Shown: positions 4,994 through 17,954 of the stretch, in pieces
Numbering within the stretch: the first letter of the stretch is position 1
How the letters are laid out: every line of letters begins with the position of its first letter
Source of the DNA: Gemmatimonadota bacterium
GTDB taxonomy: Bacteria; Gemmatimonadota; Gemmatimonadetes; Gemmatimonadales; GWC2-71-9
Direction of reading: 5' to 3'
DNA: 64,000 nt
NCBI GenBank assembly: GCA_009692185.1
Contig: SHZT01000001.1
Coordinates: 124,001-188,000, forward strand
Notes under the pieces: generated by a model
Databases searched by the model: none
Told to the model about the DNA's origin: nothing
What the model saw: the letters and a program-made list of their open reading frames with translations, nothing else
Made by a program: the position numbers and the translations under genes

Positions 4994-6874
4994 ATGATGA
5001 GACATTTCCGCGGCATGGCAAAGTGGATCATGGTAGTCTTGACCGTTGCGTTCGTCGGCTGGATGGTGTTCGACGTCGGCATGGACGTCACCGGGCGTGG
5101 CAACAACGGCGCCTCGGCCGACATTGCCCGGGTCAATGGCACGCGAATCGACCAGCAGACCTTCTACGCGGCCCTCCGTACCGCCCAGGAAACCCAGCGC
5201 AAGCGCTCCGGCTCTGCCCCGACGACGCTCGAAGACCAGAAACAGATGGAGAACTCGGTCCTGGAAGACCTGGTGCAGCAGATTCTCCTCCGGGACGAAC
5301 TGGCCCGCCGGGGCATCAAGGTCACCAACGAAGAGATCATCTCCGCCGCGCAGAACTCGCCGCCCCCCGAGCTCGAGCAGGTCCCCGAGTTTCAGACAGA
5401 CGGCAGGTTCGACCTCGCGAAGTACAAGCGCTACCTCGCGGCCAACGCGGACCCCCAATTCCTCCAGGCCCTCGAGGCCCGGTACCGAGACGAGATCCCA
5501 CGGCTCAAGCTGTTCGAGGAACTCGCCTCCGGTGTCTACGTCTCGACCGCCCGCCTGTGGCGCATGTACCGTGACCAGCACGACTCCGTCACCGCCCGCG
5601 TCGTGGCCATTCAGCCCGAGACGTTCATTTCGGACTCCGTGGTGCCACTCACCGATGACCAGCTGCGGGCCTACTACAGCAGCCATTCGGACGATTTCAA
5701 GCGGCCCGCCTACGCCTACCTCTCCTATGTCGCCGTGCCCCGCCTGGCAAACACCGCTGATTCGGCCGCCGCGCGGGCACGAGTGGACAGTCTGCACCGC
5801 CGTATCACGGCGGGAGCAGACTTTGCCGCACTCGCAAGGGCGGAATCCGGTGATTCGGGGTCCGCGACCAACGGCGGCGATCTCGGCGACACCAAGGTCG
5901 GGCAGATGGTGCCGGAGTTCGAGCGCGCCGTGCTGGCCCTCAAGCCCGGACAGGTTTCCCAGCCGGTCCGCTCCGGGTACGGGTGGCACATCATCAAGCT
6001 CGACTCGCGGAACGACAAGGCGAAGACATATCACGCGCGGCACATCCTGATCCCCGTGGAACTGGCCGGGGCGCACCGCGACCAGGTCGAATCACGCGCG
6101 GACTCGCTGGACCGGTACGCCGCCGAACAGACCGATCCCGCCACGCTGGACTCGGTGGGGCGGCACCTGGGTGTGGCGGTGCTTCGGGCTCCCAGGGTCG
6201 CGCAAGGCGAGCGCGTCTCGCTCGGCCGGTTCCTGATACCCGATGCCGGCGTGTGGGCATTCGGCACGGCCCGTCCGGGAGAGACGTCCCAGGTCATCGA
6301 AACGGACAACGCGTTCTACGTGTTCCGGCTCGATTCGCTCCAGGCGGCCGGCATACCTCCGTTCGACGCCGTGAAGGCCGACGTCCGGCGGACGGCGCTC
6401 AAGGTACAGAAGTGGGAGGCGGTGCGGGCGCTGGCCCAGCAGCTCACGAAGGAGATCCACACCGGCGCCAAGCTGGGCCAGGTCGCCGACCGCGTGAAGC
6501 TCCCGGTGCAGAACCTGGGTCCCTTCACCCGGGTCAACCCCCCGGTCCAGCTGATTACCGCGTTGCCCGTGATCGGGGCGGCATTCGGGCTGGGCGTGGG
6601 CCAGACCAGCGAGCCCATCGAATCGAAGGACGCGCTCTACTTCGTCGAGCCGGCGTACAAGCATCTGGCCGACAGCTCGGCGTTCGCCAAGCAGGTTGAC
6701 CTGCAGCGCGCACAGGTGGTGCAGGCGGCGCGGCAGGACCGGGTGCGCCAGGTCGTCGCCGCGTTACGGGAACAGGCGAAGGTAGTGGATCGTCGTAAGG
6801 AACTCGAAGAGCAGGCGAGGAAACTGGAGGATCAGGCTCCGGCGACGCCGGGCGGTCTCGCCCTGCCCTACTGA
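4994..6874 (+). CDS. Membrane-anchored periplasmic peptidyl-prolyl isomerase, PpiD/SurA-like
   Basis: A parvulin-type foldase for proteins leaving the Sec channel. The 626-residue protein starts with a short basic segment and one membrane anchor (about residues 9-29, WIMVVLTVAFVGWMVFDV). A SurA/PpiD N-terminal helical chaperone domain (about 40-200) follows, then a PpiC rotamase domain (about 235-335) with FAALARAESGDSGS, GGDLGD, and GYGWHIIKLD. The C-terminal 290 residues are weakly conserved and end in a charged coiled-coil-like stretch. A second Met at 4997 could also be the start. It is the only plus-strand gene in the first 50 kb and its end overlaps the convergent tatA by 7 nt. Confidence 0.9.
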   Translation: MMRHFRGMAKWIMVVLTVAFVGWMVFDVGMDVTGRGNNGASADIARVNGTRIDQQTFYAALRTAQETQRKRSGSAPTTLEDQKQMENSVLEDLVQQILLRDELARRGIKVTNEEIISAAQNSPPPELEQVPEFQTDGRFDLAKYKRYLAANADPQFLQALEARYRDEIPRLKLFEELASGVYVSTARLWRMYRDQHDSVTARVVAIQPETFISDSVVPLTDDQLRAYYSSHSDDFKRPAYAYLSYVAVPRLANTADSAAARARVDSLHRRITAGADFAALARAESGDSGSATNGGDLGDTKVGQMVPEFERAVLALKPGQVSQPVRSGYGWHIIKLDSRNDKAKTYHARHILIPVELAGAHRDQVESRADSLDRYAAEQTDPATLDSVGRHLGVAVLRAPRVAQGERVSLGRFLIPDAGVWAFGTARPGETSQVIETDNAFYVFRLDSLQAAGIPPFDAVKADVRRTALKVQKWEAVRALAQQLTKEIHTGAKLGQVADRVKLPVQNLGPFTRVNPPVQLITALPVIGAAFGLGVGQTSEPIESKDALYFVEPAYKHLADSSAFAKQVDLQRAQVVQAARQDRVRQVVAALREQAKVVDRRKELEEQARKLEDQAPATPGGLALPY

Positions 6875-7116
6875 CTCAGTTTCTTCGGATCACCGCTCCG
6901 GCCGGTCTGTTCGATGTGCCGGCTGGAGCCGCCCGCGGGCAGGTCGTCGGAACTGCCGCCCTCGATGCTCCCCTGCACGTCTTTCAGACTCCGCTTGAAT
7001 TCCCGGATACCCTTCCCCATGGCAGCCCCCATTTCGGGCAGCCGCTTGGCGCCGAAGACGAGGAGCACGATCACGAGAATCACCAAGAGCTCTGAAAACC
7101 CAAGATTGAAAGGCAT
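6868..7116 (-). CDS. tatA: Twin-arginine translocase subunit TatA/E
   Basis: A pore-forming or adaptor subunit of the Tat system, which exports folded proteins. The 82-residue protein begins with the characteristic single helix (LGFSELLVILVIVLLVFGAKR), the FGAKRLPEMG hinge and an amphipathic helix (MGKGIREFKRSLKDV), followed by a polar tail. It is the last gene of a small minus-strand unit (polyprenyl synthase-DUF4321-tatA). The partner TatC domain lies 4.5 kb away in the tatC/lptD frame. Confidence 0.95.
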   Translation of the reverse strand: MPFNLGFSELLVILVIVLLVFGAKRLPEMGAAMGKGIREFKRSLKDVQGSIEGGSSDDLPAGGSSRHIEQTGRSGDPKKLSQ

Positions 7117-10327: not shown

Positions 10328-11452
10328 CTACTTGTGGATCACGACCAGTTCCGGATTCCCCGGATCCGTCTGGTAACTCCAGTCGAAGATGACGTAGTCC
10401 TTGCTCCGGTGCGTGACGCGGAGCGCGCCGTACCGCGCGAACCCGTCGCCGCCGGGCATCTTGAAGACGTAGCCGTAGCCCGGCACCGCGTCGATCGCGG
10501 TGGCGGCAAAGCCGGTGAGGGGCGCCACGTCGATCGAGGTGAGATCGGAGATGGGCGCGCTGCCGTAGAGCGCCACGGTGACGCCGGCCCGCTCGGGCAC
10601 GAACGACACGGTGTCCCCCGCTCCGCGGTAGATCCAGAAATCGATGTCCGTGCGATTGCCATCGGTGACGATGCCGAGTTCCGTGGCGCTGACTTTCGCG
10701 TCACCGTTGGCGTCGAGCCAGAACCGGAATCCGGACTTGAGCTGGTTGGCCTGGTACGGGTACATCACCACGTTCCGGGCGTCGGGCCTCGGCGTGTCCC
10801 CCCGGATGGGCGACCACGTGCTCTCGAACCCCTCGACGCTCTCGGCCGACACGCCGAAGCAGCGGGGAACGCCGTTCGTGAGTGACGTCACCAGGAACTC
10901 GGGCGACACCGTGGTGCCCTCGAGCGCCCACTTGGTTCCGCAGAGCGCCGGGGTCGCGTCAATGTTGAGGCTCGTGCTGTACACCCGGTACCACCGGAAT
11001 CCGTTCGGCCGGGCCTGAAACGCGTTGTCTGTCCACGCCAGGTGAACCGCCGAATTGAGACTGATTGTCTTGAGCGTGGTCGGGGCCGGGAGCCGCAGGG
11101 TCGCGTCGTCGACCTTGACGGTGTTGCTGCGCTGGCTCTCGCCGCCCTGCCGATAGACCGCGGTGACGTAGTACTCGTAGTCCGGGGACCCGAGTTCGTG
11201 ATAGGTGGGCGAGGTCGTGGTTGCCTTGCGGTCAAACGATCCCGAGGCGCCGGGACGGGAGTACACGCGATACTCGTCGAGGTCCTCGCGGGTGACGGGA
11301 TCCCAGGTCAGCATCACGCCGCTGGGCGTCGCCGGGTTCCCGCTCGGTTCCACTCGATATGAAAGATTGGTGGGTGTGTCGGTGTCCGGCGCCGTCGTCC
11401 GGTCGCACGCCGCCACCGCCAGCAAACCCATAACCAAGAGTCGCGTCCGCAT
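10328..11452 (-). CDS. Secreted lipoprotein with fibronectin type III-like repeats
   Basis: Function unknown. The 374-residue protein has a lipoprotein signal with lipobox LAVAAC (Cys16). Two FN3-like beta-sandwich repeats follow: about residues 24-112, with SGVMLTWDPVTREDLDEYRV, and 115-210, with AVHLAWTDNA. The C-terminal region (about 220-374) contains ARNVVMYPYQANQLKSGFRF and a possible Ca-binding loop (LDANGDAKVSATELG). It is probably anchored in the outer membrane facing outside or the periplasm. It is a single gene between lptD and hutH. GCAGGG lies 5 nt before the ATG, and a 16-nt palindrome (11466-11481) lies just upstream, a candidate operator. Confidence 0.8.
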   Translation of the reverse strand: MRTRLLVMGLLAVAACDRTTAPDTDTPTNLSYRVEPSGNPATPSGVMLTWDPVTREDLDEYRVYSRPGASGSFDRKATTTSPTYHELGSPDYEYYVTAVYRQGGESQRSNTVKVDDATLRLPAPTTLKTISLNSAVHLAWTDNAFQARPNGFRWYRVYSTSLNIDATPALCGTKWALEGTTVSPEFLVTSLTNGVPRCFGVSAESVEGFESTWSPIRGDTPRPDARNVVMYPYQANQLKSGFRFWLDANGDAKVSATELGIVTDGNRTDIDFWIYRGAGDTVSFVPERAGVTVALYGSAPISDLTSIDVAPLTGFAATAIDAVPGYGYVFKMPGGDGFARYGALRVTHRSKDYVIFDWSYQTDPGNPELVVIHK

Positions 11453-11581: not shown

Positions 11582-14500
11582 CTAGCGTTTCACGGTCCGC
11601 TGGTCGTACTGGAACTTGATGTCGGGCTGGTCCAGCAGCGACACGAAGAAATCGAAGGAGAAATTCCCGTTCGGCGCCTTCACAAAGGCGAAGGTCGCGT
11701 GCCATCGACGCAGGTCCCGGTCGAGCCGCAAGACGTGCTGGCCGAATTCCTTGGTGACCATGTTGTACTGCGTGTCCCACGATGCGGACCAGCCGGGGGT
11801 CGGCGAGAACGACATGGCAAAGCCAACGGTCCGGTTCCCCGTGGTGGTCGCCACGGGGGTCACGGTCGAAGGGCGCAGGCGGTCAACGTCGAACGTCACG
11901 GACATGGAGAATGGCCGCCGGCCGCCACCCATGTTGCTCGCGGACATGCGATCCAGCGCCCCGTGGAAGGGCCCCGAAGAACCTTTGCCGGGAAGCGCGG
12001 GCGCCGAGTCCCGCGCGTCCCGGGGCCGCTCGGCGCCTCCCCCCGTGAAGACAGCAATCAGGCCGCGTACGGTATTGGCCGACACGCCGAACCGGGCGGA
12101 AATGCGGCCCAGGAACGGGCGAAAGCGGGCCGAGTCGGCACCCACCGCGCCTTCCCAGAGATCGTGGGTGGTCGAGAGGGTGAAACCGGGGAGCAGGTCG
12201 CTGGTGAACTGGTTGCTGAGCACGGACGTCTTCCACCCATTCTTGCCCGCCAGCTTCGCCTGCTCGATGTCGTAGTCTATGCCCGATGTCTGTAGGCTCA
12301 GGAGCTTCACTTTTCGCGCTTCCGCCTGCCCCGTCGTGTCACCCGGCGGGGGACGGAGCTTCCCTTCGAATGTCTGGTTCAAGCCGAATGACAGCGTGTG
12401 GGAGCGAGGGCTCCGGAGGAGCGGCGTCCGCCTGGCGGGGTCGAGCGCCCGCGCATATGCCTCCGGCACGTTCGCCGAGGGCGCGTACGCCCACCGCACG
12501 GACGGAGACACGGAATGGCGAATGCGGCTCAGGGGGCCGACGCCGGGAAAGAACCCGAAGAGCGCGGGCGAGACCGACGCCGAGAACGACAGCCGCTTTC
12601 CCTGGCTGACGAATTGGCCGTCCGTGTAGCGGTTCCGGAGCAGGAAGGCGCCGCCCGTGCTGTTCTGGATACCGACCGAGGGCTGCAGCTTCCACGTTCG
12701 CTGAAAGACGGTGGGCAGGCCGAGGGACGGGTTCCAGTCTATGCTCGTAGTGAAGTCTTCGTTGTAATAGCGCGTCACCGTGCGGGTCGTGTCGGTGGGA
12801 TCGGGCAGGATCACCGCCGAGCGCCGGTCGCTCACCGAATGGGTAAAGCTGACGGCGTTGGGGACATTCCAGCGCCCGAACCGGAGCGGGGTCCCGAAGC
12901 TTACCGCCGTATTCTGGGTGAAGAAGCGGATCGAGTCGGTCGTCGCCAGGCCGTTCACGATGGGCCCCGGGATGGTGCCGCCGTTCTGCTTGGACGTCCG
13001 GTCCGTGGTGAGGCCGAATGACGGAGACCAGGTAATGGCCTCCGAGAGGTTGATGGGCGCCGGGGCAAGGGTGAAGCTGGGGAACGACTGCGTCACGACC
13101 CCGCTCGACAACTCCTGGCTCCGCGTACCCCCGACGGAAACCTGGCCCCAGTTGAATGTCTTGTTGAAGTTGAGGTTGCTTCGGAGCGTCGCCGTGGCCA
13201 GGTAGGGATCGACCGTGTTCTGCTGGACCACTCTCGCGCTGGTGGCGAAGTCCACGTTCGCGTTGAGACGGGTGCGCATGTCGAAGGCCTGCGAGTGCGA
13301 CCACAGGAGGCGCAATGAGCGCGAATGGGACACCCCCAGCTCATACTGCCGCGTGGCGGCGAGGGAGCCCGTCACGAACTGGTTGAGCCACCGGTACTGG
13401 ACCTGTCCGTTGAACCCGATCGAGGTGCCGGCATACCAGTCCATGGCCGCCTGGGCGTCGAGATAGTCGCTGAGGACAACGTAGTACCCGATGTTCGAGA
13501 TGTGGCGACGGTAGCCGGGATTGGTGCGCACCAGGTCATTGAGCCCGAACCGGGGCACGAGAATGCCCGACCGCCGGCCGCGGCGGAGATCCTGAAAAAT
13601 GAACGGGAGCCATAGCACCGGAACGTCGCGAACGTAGAGCACCGCGGGGCGGGCGACCATCAGGGTGTTGGTCACCCATTTCACCCGCGACGCGCCGAAA
13701 TGGTAGTCCGGGAGCGGCAAGTCGCTGCTGGTAACGGTGCTGCGATCGGCGTACACCCGGGTAGACGCGGAGTCGATGGTGAGGTGTCCGCGCAGGAACC
13801 AGCCCACACCCGCCTGGTTCACGCGGGTCAGCGCCTCGGCCACGATCCCGCGCCGTTCGCAGGTGTCATAGCGCATGCCCTCCCCGACGAGCACGGTGCC
13901 CTCGCTGAAAAGCTTGGGCTCTCCCATCGCGTCGATGCGACAGTTTGACTGCTGAAAGTGGACGGAGTCTGCTTCGAGCGTGCTCCCTTCCCGCTCGATC
14001 ATGGCACGACCGGTCAGGTCGATCTGCCGGGAATCCGCGTGAAATGTCAGGCTGTCCGCGGCATAGCGGGTGGAGCTGAAGCCGGGACGCTTGAGCAGTT
14101 CCTGGATCACGGAGTCGGGCGCGGGGATGGCGCGTGCCGGCTGGGTGGGAATCCCCATGCGCCGGGCCGCGGTCGTGTCGATCGGCCCGGGCGCCGAATC
14201 CGGGCGAGGGACCCGCGGGCCGAGGCTCGTGTCCCGAACGAGCGGGCGCGTCGGGAGGCCCGGGCGAATCGGCGTGCCCTGCGCACCAGCGGTCCCGGCC
14301 GCTCCGCAGAGAAGCGCCACCAGCAGCAGCGCACCTGCGGCGCCGGCATCCGCATCGGGCTCCTTTTTCCGGCGGGATACCAGTCGGGCGAGGATGATTC
14401 CCACCTCGTAGAGCAGCACCAGCGGCACCATCATCGTGAGCATTGTGAGCGCGTCGGGCGTCGGCGTCACGATGCCAGCGATGAGGGCGGCGATGACGAT

Positions 14501-15100
14501 CCAGTAGCGGCGGTTCTTGCTGAGGAATGCCGGCGTGACCACGCCGAGGGCTGCCAGCAACATGATGACCAGCGGCAGCTGGAATGCCAGCCCGAAGGCC
14601 AATACCAGCTGGGCCGCGAACCCGACGTAGGCGTCCACCGTGATGATCGGCTCGATGTCCGCACGCTGGAATCCGAGCAGGATCTTGAACGCCGCCGGCA
14701 GGACCCACTCGTATGCGAGCGCCGCGCCCGCGGCGAACAGCACCAGGCTCGAAAGGAGCACGGGCACCAGGAACCGCTTTTCCCGCTTGAACAGCGCCGG
14801 CGAGAAGAACGCCCACGCCTGCCATACCAGGACCGGCGCCGCGAGCACGAGACCAACGAGCACGGCCAGCTTGATGGTGATGACGAACGCGTCGGTGGGG
14901 TGCGTCATGTAGAGCCGGCCCTGCGGCAGGAACGGCGCGATCGGCCGCTTCAGGAGCCCGAGCAGGTCGTAGCGCTGGACCAGCCAGAACCCGATGAGCG
15001 TGCCCACCAGCAGCGCCAGCAGGCTCCACAGGATCCGCCACCTGAGTTCTTCCAGGTGGTCGAGAAAGGGCATTTCGGCCCGCGTTTCTTCTTTCGGCAT
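11582..15100 (-). CDS. tatC/lptD: TatC-LptD fusion: Sec-independent translocase subunit joined in frame to LPS-assembly outer-membrane protein
   Basis: One uninterrupted frame of 1172 codons. Residues 1-250 are a complete TatC: the HLEELRWRILW signature, six membrane helices, and a C-terminal basic end RRKK. The position that often reads F-E-x-P is FQLP. Residues about 255-272 are a hydrophobic stretch (GALLLVALLCGAAGTAGA) ending in a signal-peptidase-like AGA|Q site at 273/274. Residues 274-1172 form an LptD: an OstA/LptA-like N-terminal beta-jellyroll (TRYAADSLTFHADSRQIDLT) and a large beta-barrel ending FQYDQRTVKR. TatC is an inner-membrane protein and LptD an outer-membrane protein, so the product is presumably cleaved at the internal signal. 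No in-frame ATG marks an lptD start, but an out-of-frame ATG with AAGGAG lies at 14355. A frameshift error is the alternative. It is the last gene of the ssb-tol-pal run. Confidence 0.85.
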   Translation of the reverse strand: MPKEETRAEMPFLDHLEELRWRILWSLLALLVGTLIGFWLVQRYDLLGLLKRPIAPFLPQGRLYMTHPTDAFVITIKLAVLVGLVLAAPVLVWQAWAFFSPALFKREKRFLVPVLLSSLVLFAAGAALAYEWVLPAAFKILLGFQRADIEPIITVDAYVGFAAQLVLAFGLAFQLPLVIMLLAALGVVTPAFLSKNRRYWIVIAALIAGIVTPTPDALTMLTMMVPLVLLYEVGIILARLVSRRKKEPDADAGAAGALLLVALLCGAAGTAGAQGTPIRPGLPTRPLVRDTSLGPRVPRPDSAPGPIDTTAARRMGIPTQPARAIPAPDSVIQELLKRPGFSSTRYAADSLTFHADSRQIDLTGRAMIEREGSTLEADSVHFQQSNCRIDAMGEPKLFSEGTVLVGEGMRYDTCERRGIVAEALTRVNQAGVGWFLRGHLTIDSASTRVYADRSTVTSSDLPLPDYHFGASRVKWVTNTLMVARPAVLYVRDVPVLWLPFIFQDLRRGRRSGILVPRFGLNDLVRTNPGYRRHISNIGYYVVLSDYLDAQAAMDWYAGTSIGFNGQVQYRWLNQFVTGSLAATRQYELGVSHSRSLRLLWSHSQAFDMRTRLNANVDFATSARVVQQNTVDPYLATATLRSNLNFNKTFNWGQVSVGGTRSQELSSGVVTQSFPSFTLAPAPINLSEAITWSPSFGLTTDRTSKQNGGTIPGPIVNGLATTDSIRFFTQNTAVSFGTPLRFGRWNVPNAVSFTHSVSDRRSAVILPDPTDTTRTVTRYYNEDFTTSIDWNPSLGLPTVFQRTWKLQPSVGIQNSTGGAFLLRNRYTDGQFVSQGKRLSFSASVSPALFGFFPGVGPLSRIRHSVSPSVRWAYAPSANVPEAYARALDPARRTPLLRSPRSHTLSFGLNQTFEGKLRPPPGDTTGQAEARKVKLLSLQTSGIDYDIEQAKLAGKNGWKTSVLSNQFTSDLLPGFTLSTTHDLWEGAVGADSARFRPFLGRISARFGVSANTVRGLIAVFTGGGAERPRDARDSAPALPGKGSSGPFHGALDRMSASNMGGGRRPFSMSVTFDVDRLRPSTVTPVATTTGNRTVGFAMSFSPTPGWSASWDTQYNMVTKEFGQHVLRLDRDLRRWHATFAFVKAPNGNFSFDFFVSLLDQPDIKFQYDQRTVKR

Positions 15101-15125: not shown

Positions 15126-15902
15126 TCAGCGACCCAGCCCCTGCAGCCTGTCGCGAGCCAGCGTCGCTTCGTCGGACCGGGGGTAGGCGGCGGTGACCCG
15201 CATGAAAAACGTGCGGGCCGCGGCCTTGTCGCCTTTTCGCTCGGCCATCATGCCGAGCTTGTACAGCGCGGAGGGTGCGCGGGACGAGTTGGGAAACGTC
15301 TTCTGCACGAGCTCGTAGGCGAACTGCGCGGAATCGGCATTCGTGGCGTTCCACGACTCGCCAATGAAATACAGGGCGTCGGCGGCGCGCTCGTGGTTGG
15401 GATACGTCGAGAGAAGTGTCTGGAAGCCGAGCCGCGCGGTCTGCGGACTCCCGCGTCGGAGTTGCTGGATGGACACCTCATACAGCTGGTCCGGGCCCGG
15501 CGTGCCCGGCGCGTTGGCCCCGGCCGCGCCGGTGTCCGTTGCTGCCCGGGCCGAGGTGACGGCCTGGCTCCGCGCCTCGATCTGGCCGCGAAGGTCGGTG
15601 AGACGCTGCTGGCTCTGCCCCGTGAGCTCCTGCACCTGCACCAGCTGCCGCTGGATTTCCGTCAGGTCGCTGCGAATGTCGCCGCGGAACGCGACCAGGC
15701 GGTTTTCCTGGAGCGCGAGGGAATCCAGGATACGGCGCTCGAGCTGAAAAATGCTGTTCAACAACACGGCCCGCGCCGAATCGGCGCGGGCCGTTTCCTG
15801 CCGCAACAACTTCACTTGCGTCTCGACGCGGTTGACGTCGCTCTGGCGCGCACAGGCGCCCAAGGCGACCACGACGAGGAGCGAGCGGGCTGTTCGCCTC
15901 AC
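15126..15902 (-). CDS. cpoB: Tol-Pal coordinating lipoprotein-type protein CpoB/YbgF
   Basis: A periplasmic partner of TolA that links Tol-Pal to peptidoglycan synthesis. The 258-residue protein has a lipobox (VVVALGAC), an N-terminal coiled coil (about residues 20-110, with ETQVKLLRQETARAD and LERRILDSLALQENRL), a linker, and C-terminal TPRs (LYEVSIQQLRRGSPQTARLGF, ALYKLGMMAERKGDKAAAR). The frame continues upstream to 15974, but the GTG at 15902 is 5 nt after the pal stop, has a GAGGTG context and starts a good signal sequence (VRRTARSLLVVVALGAC). The lipobox differs from the non-lipidated E. coli CpoB. Confidence 0.88.
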   Translation of the reverse strand: MRRTARSLLVVVALGACARQSDVNRVETQVKLLRQETARADSARAVLLNSIFQLERRILDSLALQENRLVAFRGDIRSDLTEIQRQLVQVQELTGQSQQRLTDLRGQIEARSQAVTSARAATDTGAAGANAPGTPGPDQLYEVSIQQLRRGSPQTARLGFQTLLSTYPNHERAADALYFIGESWNATNADSAQFAYELVQKTFPNSSRAPSALYKLGMMAERKGDKAAARTFFMRVTAAYPRSDEATLARDRLQGLGR

Positions 15903-15907
15903 CTCAA

Positions 15908-16549
15908 TCAGGGCCGGCGCAATGCCCCGCCGCCGGCGGTGACGGTAAACTCGCCGCGCCGGTTCGCCGCCCACGCATCTTCGGTATGACCAGGGTTCGC
16001 CGGCGATTCCTCGCCCATGGACCGCGTGCCGATGCGGGACGGACTGATGCCGCGGGTGGTGAGGTACTGCTTCGCGGAGATCGCGCGCCGGTTCCCCAGC
16101 GCGAGGTTGTACTCGTCAGACCCCCGCTCGTCGGCGTGACCGGCGATCTCGACGCTGAGACCAGGGTTTGCCTGGAGGACGCGGAGCTTCTCGTCGAGCA
16201 TGCCGGCGTCTTCACCGACGCGAATGTCGGCCTTGTCGAAGTCGTAGTGGACCGCGCGCGCGATCATCGCCTTCACCGCTTCGGTTTCCCGGGAGATGGT
16301 GCCAAGCGAGTCGGACTCCCGCTGGCGGCGGACTCGTTCAGACTCCTGCGAGGACCGCGCGATGCTGTCGCGCCTGGCCTGCTCGCGAGCGGCGGCATCC
16401 CGATCCGCCTGTTCCCGGCGGCGGGCTGCGTCGATCGAATCCTGGTTGACGGTCTGGACCGGGGCGGGCGCTGCGGCGGGTTTTCCGCCACACGCGGCGG
16501 CCACGATGAGCGCGGCGACGGTGGCGTAAACGGGAAGGGCAAGACGCAT
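15908..16549 (-). CDS. pal: Peptidoglycan-associated lipoprotein Pal
   Basis: An outer-membrane lipoprotein that binds meso-DAP peptidoglycan and TolB. The 213-residue protein has a signal peptide with lipobox (LIVAAAC), then a charged Arg/Ala/Glu-rich helix (RRREQADRDAAAREQARRD). The OmpA-like domain (about 105-213) carries VHYDFDKADI, EIAGHADERGSDEYNLALG and RRAISAKQYL, which include the peptidoglycan-binding Asp and Arg. The ATG at 16549 was chosen because it opens the signal peptide and has GGAAGTG upstream; the longer frame to 16621 overlaps tolB. The C-terminus reads GGEFTVTAGGGALRRP-like with an extra short tail. Confidence 0.95.
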   Translation of the reverse strand: MRLALPVYATVAALIVAAACGGKPAAAPAPVQTVNQDSIDAARRREQADRDAAAREQARRDSIARSSQESERVRRQRESDSLGTISRETEAVKAMIARAVHYDFDKADIRVGEDAGMLDEKLRVLQANPGLSVEIAGHADERGSDEYNLALGNRRAISAKQYLTTRGISPSRIGTRSMGEESPANPGHTEDAWAANRRGEFTVTAGGGALRRP

Positions 16550-16574
16550 AGTCACTTCCGATCTGTTGAGGTGG

Positions 16575-17954
16575 TTATGGGCTGATCCGCTGAGACCACG
16601 CGGGCAGCCGTGCTTCTCCAATTCGGGTCACCTGACGCACACGGCCCGTATCGAGATCAATGATCCAGATTTGCCGGGAGCCCGTACGGTCGGAGACAAA
16701 AGCGAGATGCTGGCCGTCCGGCGCCCACGTAGGGTCTTCGTTCCGCCCAGCGCTGGTCAACTGGCGCACTCGGCGTGATGCCACGTCCATCACGAACACC
16801 TGCGGGCTGCCGGCGACGTCGCGATGAAACGCGACGCTGAGACCGTCGGGTGACCATTCCGGCGCGTTAGAGCTGCCCGTCATGCCGTAGTCGAACGGCG
16901 CGAACAATTCCTGGCCGGTCCCGTCGGCCGCCATGACGTAAATCTGCGGCAACCCGGGGCGCGTGGATACGAAAGCTATACGGCGCCCGTCAGGACTGAA
17001 CGTAGGTGACAGGTTATCCGAAAACCTACCTACGGTCAAGCGTTGCAAGCAACAGTCGGACGCGAGGTTATACGTATAGACGTCGGTCCCTTCGTCGCTG
17101 GATCGGCTGAACGCCAGGGTCGCACCGTCTGGCGAAAACGCCGCCGTGTAGTTCAGGAACTGACTGGTGGGCGGAACGAGCCGGCGCTCGCCGGTGACCA
17201 GGTCCATCAGGTAGATGGGCCCACGCCCAGCCTGGAATTCCGTGTACACCAGTCGGCGCCCTCCGGGTTCCCATCCGGGCGAAAGCGCCGTCATCCCCTC
17301 GGACGAGACCGGAAGCATGGCCGCCCCGTCCAGGTCAACCCGGTACGCCCGTCCCCGCTGGATGAACACCAGCCGCGTGGCGGAGACACCCGCCGTCCCG
17401 GCCGCCACCCGCACGACCTCGTCGCTCACCCGGTGCACCGCCATGCGGAACGCCGGGTCGGTGACCGTGCCCTGCGGCACCGAGAGCTGCCGACGGATCG
17501 TCTCGCCCTTCACGTCGTACACCGTCGCCGCCACGGCGCCGGTCGTGTCGTTGCGCCAGACATTGACCGCGTAGTCGGCGCCGAGGGCGGCATACAGGGG
17601 GTAGTTCACGAACAGTTCGAGCGGGGCGGCGGTAACACCAGTGGCAGTGGGACGGGGGCCCGCGGCACCGGGCGACAGCAGGCCGACGCTCAAGGAGTCA
17701 CCTCCGGGCAACGAGATCAGCTCGAACCGGTCACTGTAGTCGAGGTCCCGCAGCAGGATGGCGCGCGTCGAGTCGAGCAACTCGGTGTGTTTTCCCCCCA
17801 GCACAAGGACGCCGGGCCTCAAGCCCGGCGTGTAGGTAATCCCGATGCGGACGCCACGGTCCGCCGGCACGGTATCCTGGGCTCGGGCGGCCGCCGTAGT
17901 AGTGAGAGCCGCGAGGATCGCCAGCGGTGCGGACCGCCACACCCGGGGAATCAT
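16575..17954 (-). CDS. tolB: Tol-Pal translocation protein TolB
   Basis: A periplasmic beta-propeller that shuttles between Pal and TolA/outer-membrane proteins. The 459-residue protein has a signal peptide cleaved near ARA|QDT and an N-terminal TolB domain (about 30-175). Repeated propeller blades follow, with the family motif in each: FSPDGATLAFSRSSD, FSPDGRRIAFVSTRPG, WSPDGLSVAFHRD, WAPDGQHLAFVSDRTG. The ATG at 17954 overlaps the tolA/tonB stop as ATGA. The order tolQ-tolR-tolA-tolB-pal-cpoB is the canonical Tol-Pal operon. Confidence 0.95.
   Translation of the reverse strand: MIPRVWRSAPLAILAALTTTAAARAQDTVPADRGVRIGITYTPGLRPGVLVLGGKHTELLDSTRAILLRDLDYSDRFELISLPGGDSLSVGLLSPGAAGPRPTATGVTAAPLELFVNYPLYAALGADYAVNVWRNDTTGAVAATVYDVKGETIRRQLSVPQGTVTDPAFRMAVHRVSDEVVRVAAGTAGVSATRLVFIQRGRAYRVDLDGAAMLPVSSEGMTALSPGWEPGGRRLVYTEFQAGRGPIYLMDLVTGERRLVPPTSQFLNYTAAFSPDGATLAFSRSSDEGTDVYTYNLASDCCLQRLTVGRFSDNLSPTFSPDGRRIAFVSTRPGLPQIYVMAADGTGQELFAPFDYGMTGSSNAPEWSPDGLSVAFHRDVAGSPQVFVMDVASRRVRQLTSAGRNEDPTWAPDGQHLAFVSDRTGSRQIWIIDLDTGRVRQVTRIGEARLPAWSQRISP

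Follow-up and report, generated by a model that had tools for sequence, protein, structure and literature searches.

A conserved and recurrent tatC-lptD gene fusion in Gemmatimonadota, proposed to encode a membrane polyprotein

The window analysed in this study, the whole stretch of 64,000 nucleotides from a Gemmatimonadota genome, contained a gene in which tatC and lptD share one reading frame, and comparison with related genomes established that this fused gene is real, ancient and repeatedly evolved. Judging from its sequence, we consider it very likely that the gene is a genuine ancient fusion encoding a two-protein membrane polyprotein that is cut by signal peptidase I. The frame covered positions 11582-15100 of the reverse strand, began with ATG and encoded 1172 aa with no internal stops, and Pfam found both domains in it, bearing out the original prediction of a continuous TatC-LptD frame of 1172 codons. 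The AGA↓Q site (residues 271-274) and the 899-residue LptD predicted to follow it were both present. In the window's genome (2.63 Mb, 30 contigs, 99.94% complete), the fused gene was a single copy with a 100% match. Its parts were as follows.

14357-15100, reverse strand: TatC domain (residues 1-248), with six predicted membrane helices.
14282-14362, reverse strand: junction, a predicted internal signal peptide or seventh hydrophobic segment (residues 247-273).
14279-14284, reverse strand: predicted signal peptidase I site A273↓Q274, a conserved motif.
11585-14281, reverse strand: LptD (residues 274-1172, 899 aa), with a disordered Pro-rich stretch, a periplasmic OstA-like domain and a beta-barrel.

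Read directly from the sequence, the domains were complete. PF00902 matched residues 14-226 as a full-length domain (E 9e-63, 212 bits against a cut-off of 25.1), TIGR00945 (tatC) scored 205.7 bits against a cut-off of 132.7, and a profile match to Aquifex TatC 4b4a was obtained at E 8e-54. Residues E17, R20, P53 and E107 were invariant among the fused proteins in an alignment of 50. For the LptD part, PF19838 matched residues 482-946 (E 1e-42, 146.9 bits against a cut-off of 22.5), profile matches to the LptD structures 7omm and 8h1r were found, and Foldseek matched the fold to LptDE 8h1s at E 4e-26; the OstA-like periplasmic domain and the large C-terminal beta-barrel of LptD were both present (PF19838; 8h1s). 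An AlphaFold2 model from a 50-row alignment (mean pLDDT 78) placed TatC helices at residues 11-246, with a Foldseek TM-score of 0.84 to 4b4a (by target length), followed by the LptD periplasmic domain and barrel, with low confidence at the linker of residues 247-306 between the two normal folds. The model and the Foldseek matches suggested that both domains look normal; the model leaves the relative arrangement of TatC and LptD unpredicted.

TatC was single in all family genomes in which it was found, save two genomes with fragments, and the fused copy is thus the sole TatC of these genomes. The only TatA/B/E gene detected in the window's genome was on the same strand as the fused gene, approximately 4.5 kb downstream and non-adjacent.

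6868-7116, reverse strand: tatA (PF02416, 65 bits), a potential partner of the fused TatC.

Two LptF/LptG genes were found in the same genome, and given these and tatA, the Tat and LPS pathways would both be expected to work. The fused gene had two recognizable upstream neighbors.

15126-15974, reverse strand: CpoB/YbgF-like TPR protein (PF13174, E 2e-11).
15908-16621, reverse strand: Pal-like OmpA-family protein (PF00691, E 2e-17).

Directly downstream, at 10328-11452 of the reverse strand, was a gene for a 374-aa predicted lipoprotein (MRTRLLVMGLLAVAACDRT...), for which a Pfam search returned no match.

The search of 102 genomes of the window's GTDB family (f1) showed that most hold the continuous frame, at approximately 40-70% protein identity. 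TatC and LptD shared an open frame in 75 genomes, representing 32 of the family's 41 genera; these loci comprised 67 complete genes (1134-1203 aa) and 8 that were cut short or incomplete, and one was in a one-contig assembly (G100). Differences in junction length were multiples of three throughout the family, and the conservation of an open junction in 75 family members excludes chance.

The neighboring families indicated how the fusion arose. In family f2, tatC and lptD were adjacent but separate, with a stop-start overlap of 4 nt in 36 of 45 cases and of 1 nt in 7 of 45, and in family f3 they were again separate, the start abutting the stop or lying a few nt from it. Such stop-start overlaps are known to give termination-reinitiation coupling (PMC6728339, PMC10666635). 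The overlaps in f2 therefore suggested that the source of the fusion was a translationally coupled gene pair. A tree of TatC plus LptD mapped a single fusion to the base of f1 (97% SH-aLRT), with f3 as the split sister. Seven changes in the tree fit two gains and five losses, their direction being taken from the split outgroups, as parsimony counts alone leave it unfixed.

Five later splits were found within f1, in genera g10, g15, g16, g20 and g37, and these split descendants, which count against the polyprotein reading, show that the fusion is dispensable. In one genome of genus g15 (G051), tatC and lptD (L082, L083) were on different contigs, indicating that the pair was parted by rearrangement, not by a new stop codon. 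At another locus (L062, genome G034), the TatC and LptD frames were offset at a run of GGGGGC repeats, about 30-70 nt past the TatC YE motif, and the TatC frame extended to about 305 aa; the genes may truly be split here, or an assembly indel may have broken a frame that is otherwise fused.

Fusion also occurred outside f1. Genus g42 of f2 had fused its genes independently (L094, L095), with the same shortening of the TatC tail and the LptD n-region as in f1. A wider search of 288 genomes added L159, L160 and L161, all fused genomes of genus g44 of f2, which probably represent two events. At least two further fusions thus occurred in f2 beyond that of f1, at least three in all. Among the best matches listed from 200 genomes sampled across the phylum, none added another full-length in-frame junction. 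At one locus from another family of the same class (L164, genome G221), tatC and lptD were in the same frame with one TGA between them, so loss of that single stop would fuse them.

The junction itself was conserved. Its h-region, GALLLVALLCGAAGTAGA, was preceded by a basic tail, RRKK (from residue 243), and the order of last TatC helix (LLYEVG...), Arg/Lys run, hydrophobic stretch and A↓Q was kept in 74 fused genes. Gln274 was invariant in all 50 aligned fused proteins; the site was found by searching for Q, and alignments built without that choice show Q invariant too. An A↓Q-type site was also present in 59 of 60 separate LptD genes of neighboring lineages, and the embedded segment therefore resembles the signal peptide that LptD originally had, a predicted cleavable Sec signal. 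A Tat-type signal, as suggested by the RR-rich tail, was considered and rejected: the tail is followed by no SRRxFLK-like motif, and the signals of separate LptDs are ordinary Sec-like ones. The window's genome encoded one signal peptidase I. Between close pairs, junction substitutions at codon positions 1, 2 and 3 were 0.23, 0.19 and 0.44 per site, an excess at position 3 of the kind expected if the junction is translated, which alone cannot separate one chain from two.

Predicted signal peptidase sites repeatedly had Gln at +1, in LptD of all lineages and in TolB (16575-17954, ARAQ). A Gln rule at this position was described as Bacteroidetes-specific (PMC5837995), and Gemmatimonadota may share it. 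When the window was crudely scanned for further signal peptides, 7 candidates emerged, too few to judge whether Gln at +1 is general in this lineage.

In the TatC family, both ends of the protein are in the cytoplasm. The Arg/Lys tail would therefore be cytoplasmic and the C-terminal end of segment 7 outside, leading LptD into the periplasm, the arrangement that an internal signal peptide would have. We infer that the frame would be translated as one chain, with TatC inserted co-translationally, its N and C termini cytoplasmic, and with its basic C-terminal tail doubling as the n-region of the internal signal peptide, whose hydrophobic segment 7 would thread LptD through SecYEG. Cleavage by signal peptidase I at A↓Q would then free LptD with an N-terminal Gln to pass to the Bam complex and on to the outer membrane, and TatC would remain in the inner membrane with a short extra hydrophobic tail, each product presumably serving its family's function. 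Obligatory 1:1 synthesis would take over from translational coupling. The export of LptD behind the TatC membrane domain, as originally proposed, is thus plausible.

A true fusion processed by signal peptidase was one of three explanations offered in the original prediction, together with a recent rearrangement and a sequencing or assembly indel. The same unbroken tatC-lptD frame in 75 family genomes decided for the true fusion, with its processing still a prediction, and the other two explanations fell away. A recent rearrangement is excluded by the tree, in which the fusion arose at the base of f1. That an indel joined two separate genes is scarcely credible, even with a window genome in 30 contigs and an out-of-frame ATG with AAGGAG at the junction, as this explanation is contradicted by the presence of the fusion in 75 genomes, including the one-contig G100. 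The ATG and the AAGGAG 4 nt upstream of it were present as described.

14353-14365, reverse strand: out-of-frame ATG (14355) with AAGGAG (14360-14365) 4 nt upstream, in frame +1 and probably not functional.

However, the one-base deletion said to join this ATG to LptD would instead yield the third frame; lying in frame +1 of the fused frame, the ATG requires a 1-base insertion or a 2-base deletion. A functional start at ATG 14355 was also rejected, as it is in the wrong frame and neither the ATG nor the AAGGAG was conserved in a relative of the same genus (L003), in which the junction was in frame with a 3-nt gap and the fused frame was kept.

The remaining alternatives accept the open frame. 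In one, LptD begins separately at an internal codon, non-canonical or reinitiated, and stop loss was neutral. The probable translational coupling of the ancestors would suit such a start, as would the in-frame GTG, TTG or ATG retained in 22 of 74 fused genes (for example L159 of genus g44, with an in-frame GTG ahead of its signal); a weak Shine-Dalgarno match accompanied an in-frame start in 9 of the 74. However, from the end of TatC helix 6 to 15 residues before the site, in-frame ATG was absent in 69 of 74 fused genes, and ATG, GTG and TTG were all absent in 52 of 74. Shine-Dalgarno sequences were uninformative as a test of internal starts, since tatC itself was preceded by one in only 15 of 75 fused genes. 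The junction lengths, varying by threes across an old family, and the re-split f1 genes, which show a stop and mostly a nearby start codon, also speak against a separate start, and we regard it as distinctly unlikely. Less likely still is a chain that stays uncleaved, with LptD tethered to the inner membrane via TatC. A single continuous chain and a disordered stretch ahead of the LptD periplasmic domain would be compatible with a tether, but the invariant A↓Q motif resembles that of separate LptDs, and the window's genome encodes signal peptidase I. Separate LptDs also have a similar Pro-rich stretch after the site, so the stretch is not a tethering adaptation.

The preferred reading, a polyprotein cut by signal peptidase I, predicts co-translational export of an outer-membrane barrel behind an inner-membrane protein, unlike the usual route. 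The lineage can be viewed as a natural experiment in overlapping genes becoming one, with an ancestral coupled pair, at least three fusions and five re-splits. It is possible, though rather doubtful, that the fusion was selected for a function of its own, by fixing the ratio and site of Tat and LPS translocon synthesis, or through an uncleaved fraction bridging the two membranes. If so, repeated independent fusion would reflect a connection between Tat export and LPS assembly that has so far gone unrecognized. As annotation pipelines probably assign fused genes one name, the other protein, either LptD or TatC, may be recorded as absent.

The separate tatC-lptD pair of f2 resembles other overlapping (ATGA/TGATG) coupled pairs (PMC6728339, PMC10666635), whereas the fusion drops the stop and the start, and coupling becomes covalent. 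Compared with the TatC family (PF00902, TIGR00945), the fused TatC has the complete domain, the conserved residues and a fold match to 4b4a/4hts, but bears a predicted C-terminal internal signal peptide and an entire outer-membrane protein. Compared with the LptD family (PF19838; LptDE structures), the fused LptD matches in periplasmic domain and barrel, by profile and by fold, but is without a clear start codon of its own and has its predicted signal peptide embedded behind TatC.

Bacterial polyproteins are rare, and a literature search for a TatC-LptD fusion found no paper; we know of no polyprotein joining two machines of different membranes. The closest precedent known to us is FbcH of Bradyrhizobium, a polyprotein precursor of cytochromes b and c1 that signal peptidase cleaves. 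As in FbcH, a single frame runs from a multispanning inner-membrane protein through an internal signal peptide into an exported protein; in the fused gene, the signal peptide and its cleavage site of the signal peptidase type are predicted. However, the two subunits of FbcH belong to one complex in one membrane, whereas TatC and LptD belong to unrelated machines, the Tat translocase and the LPS translocon, in two membranes.
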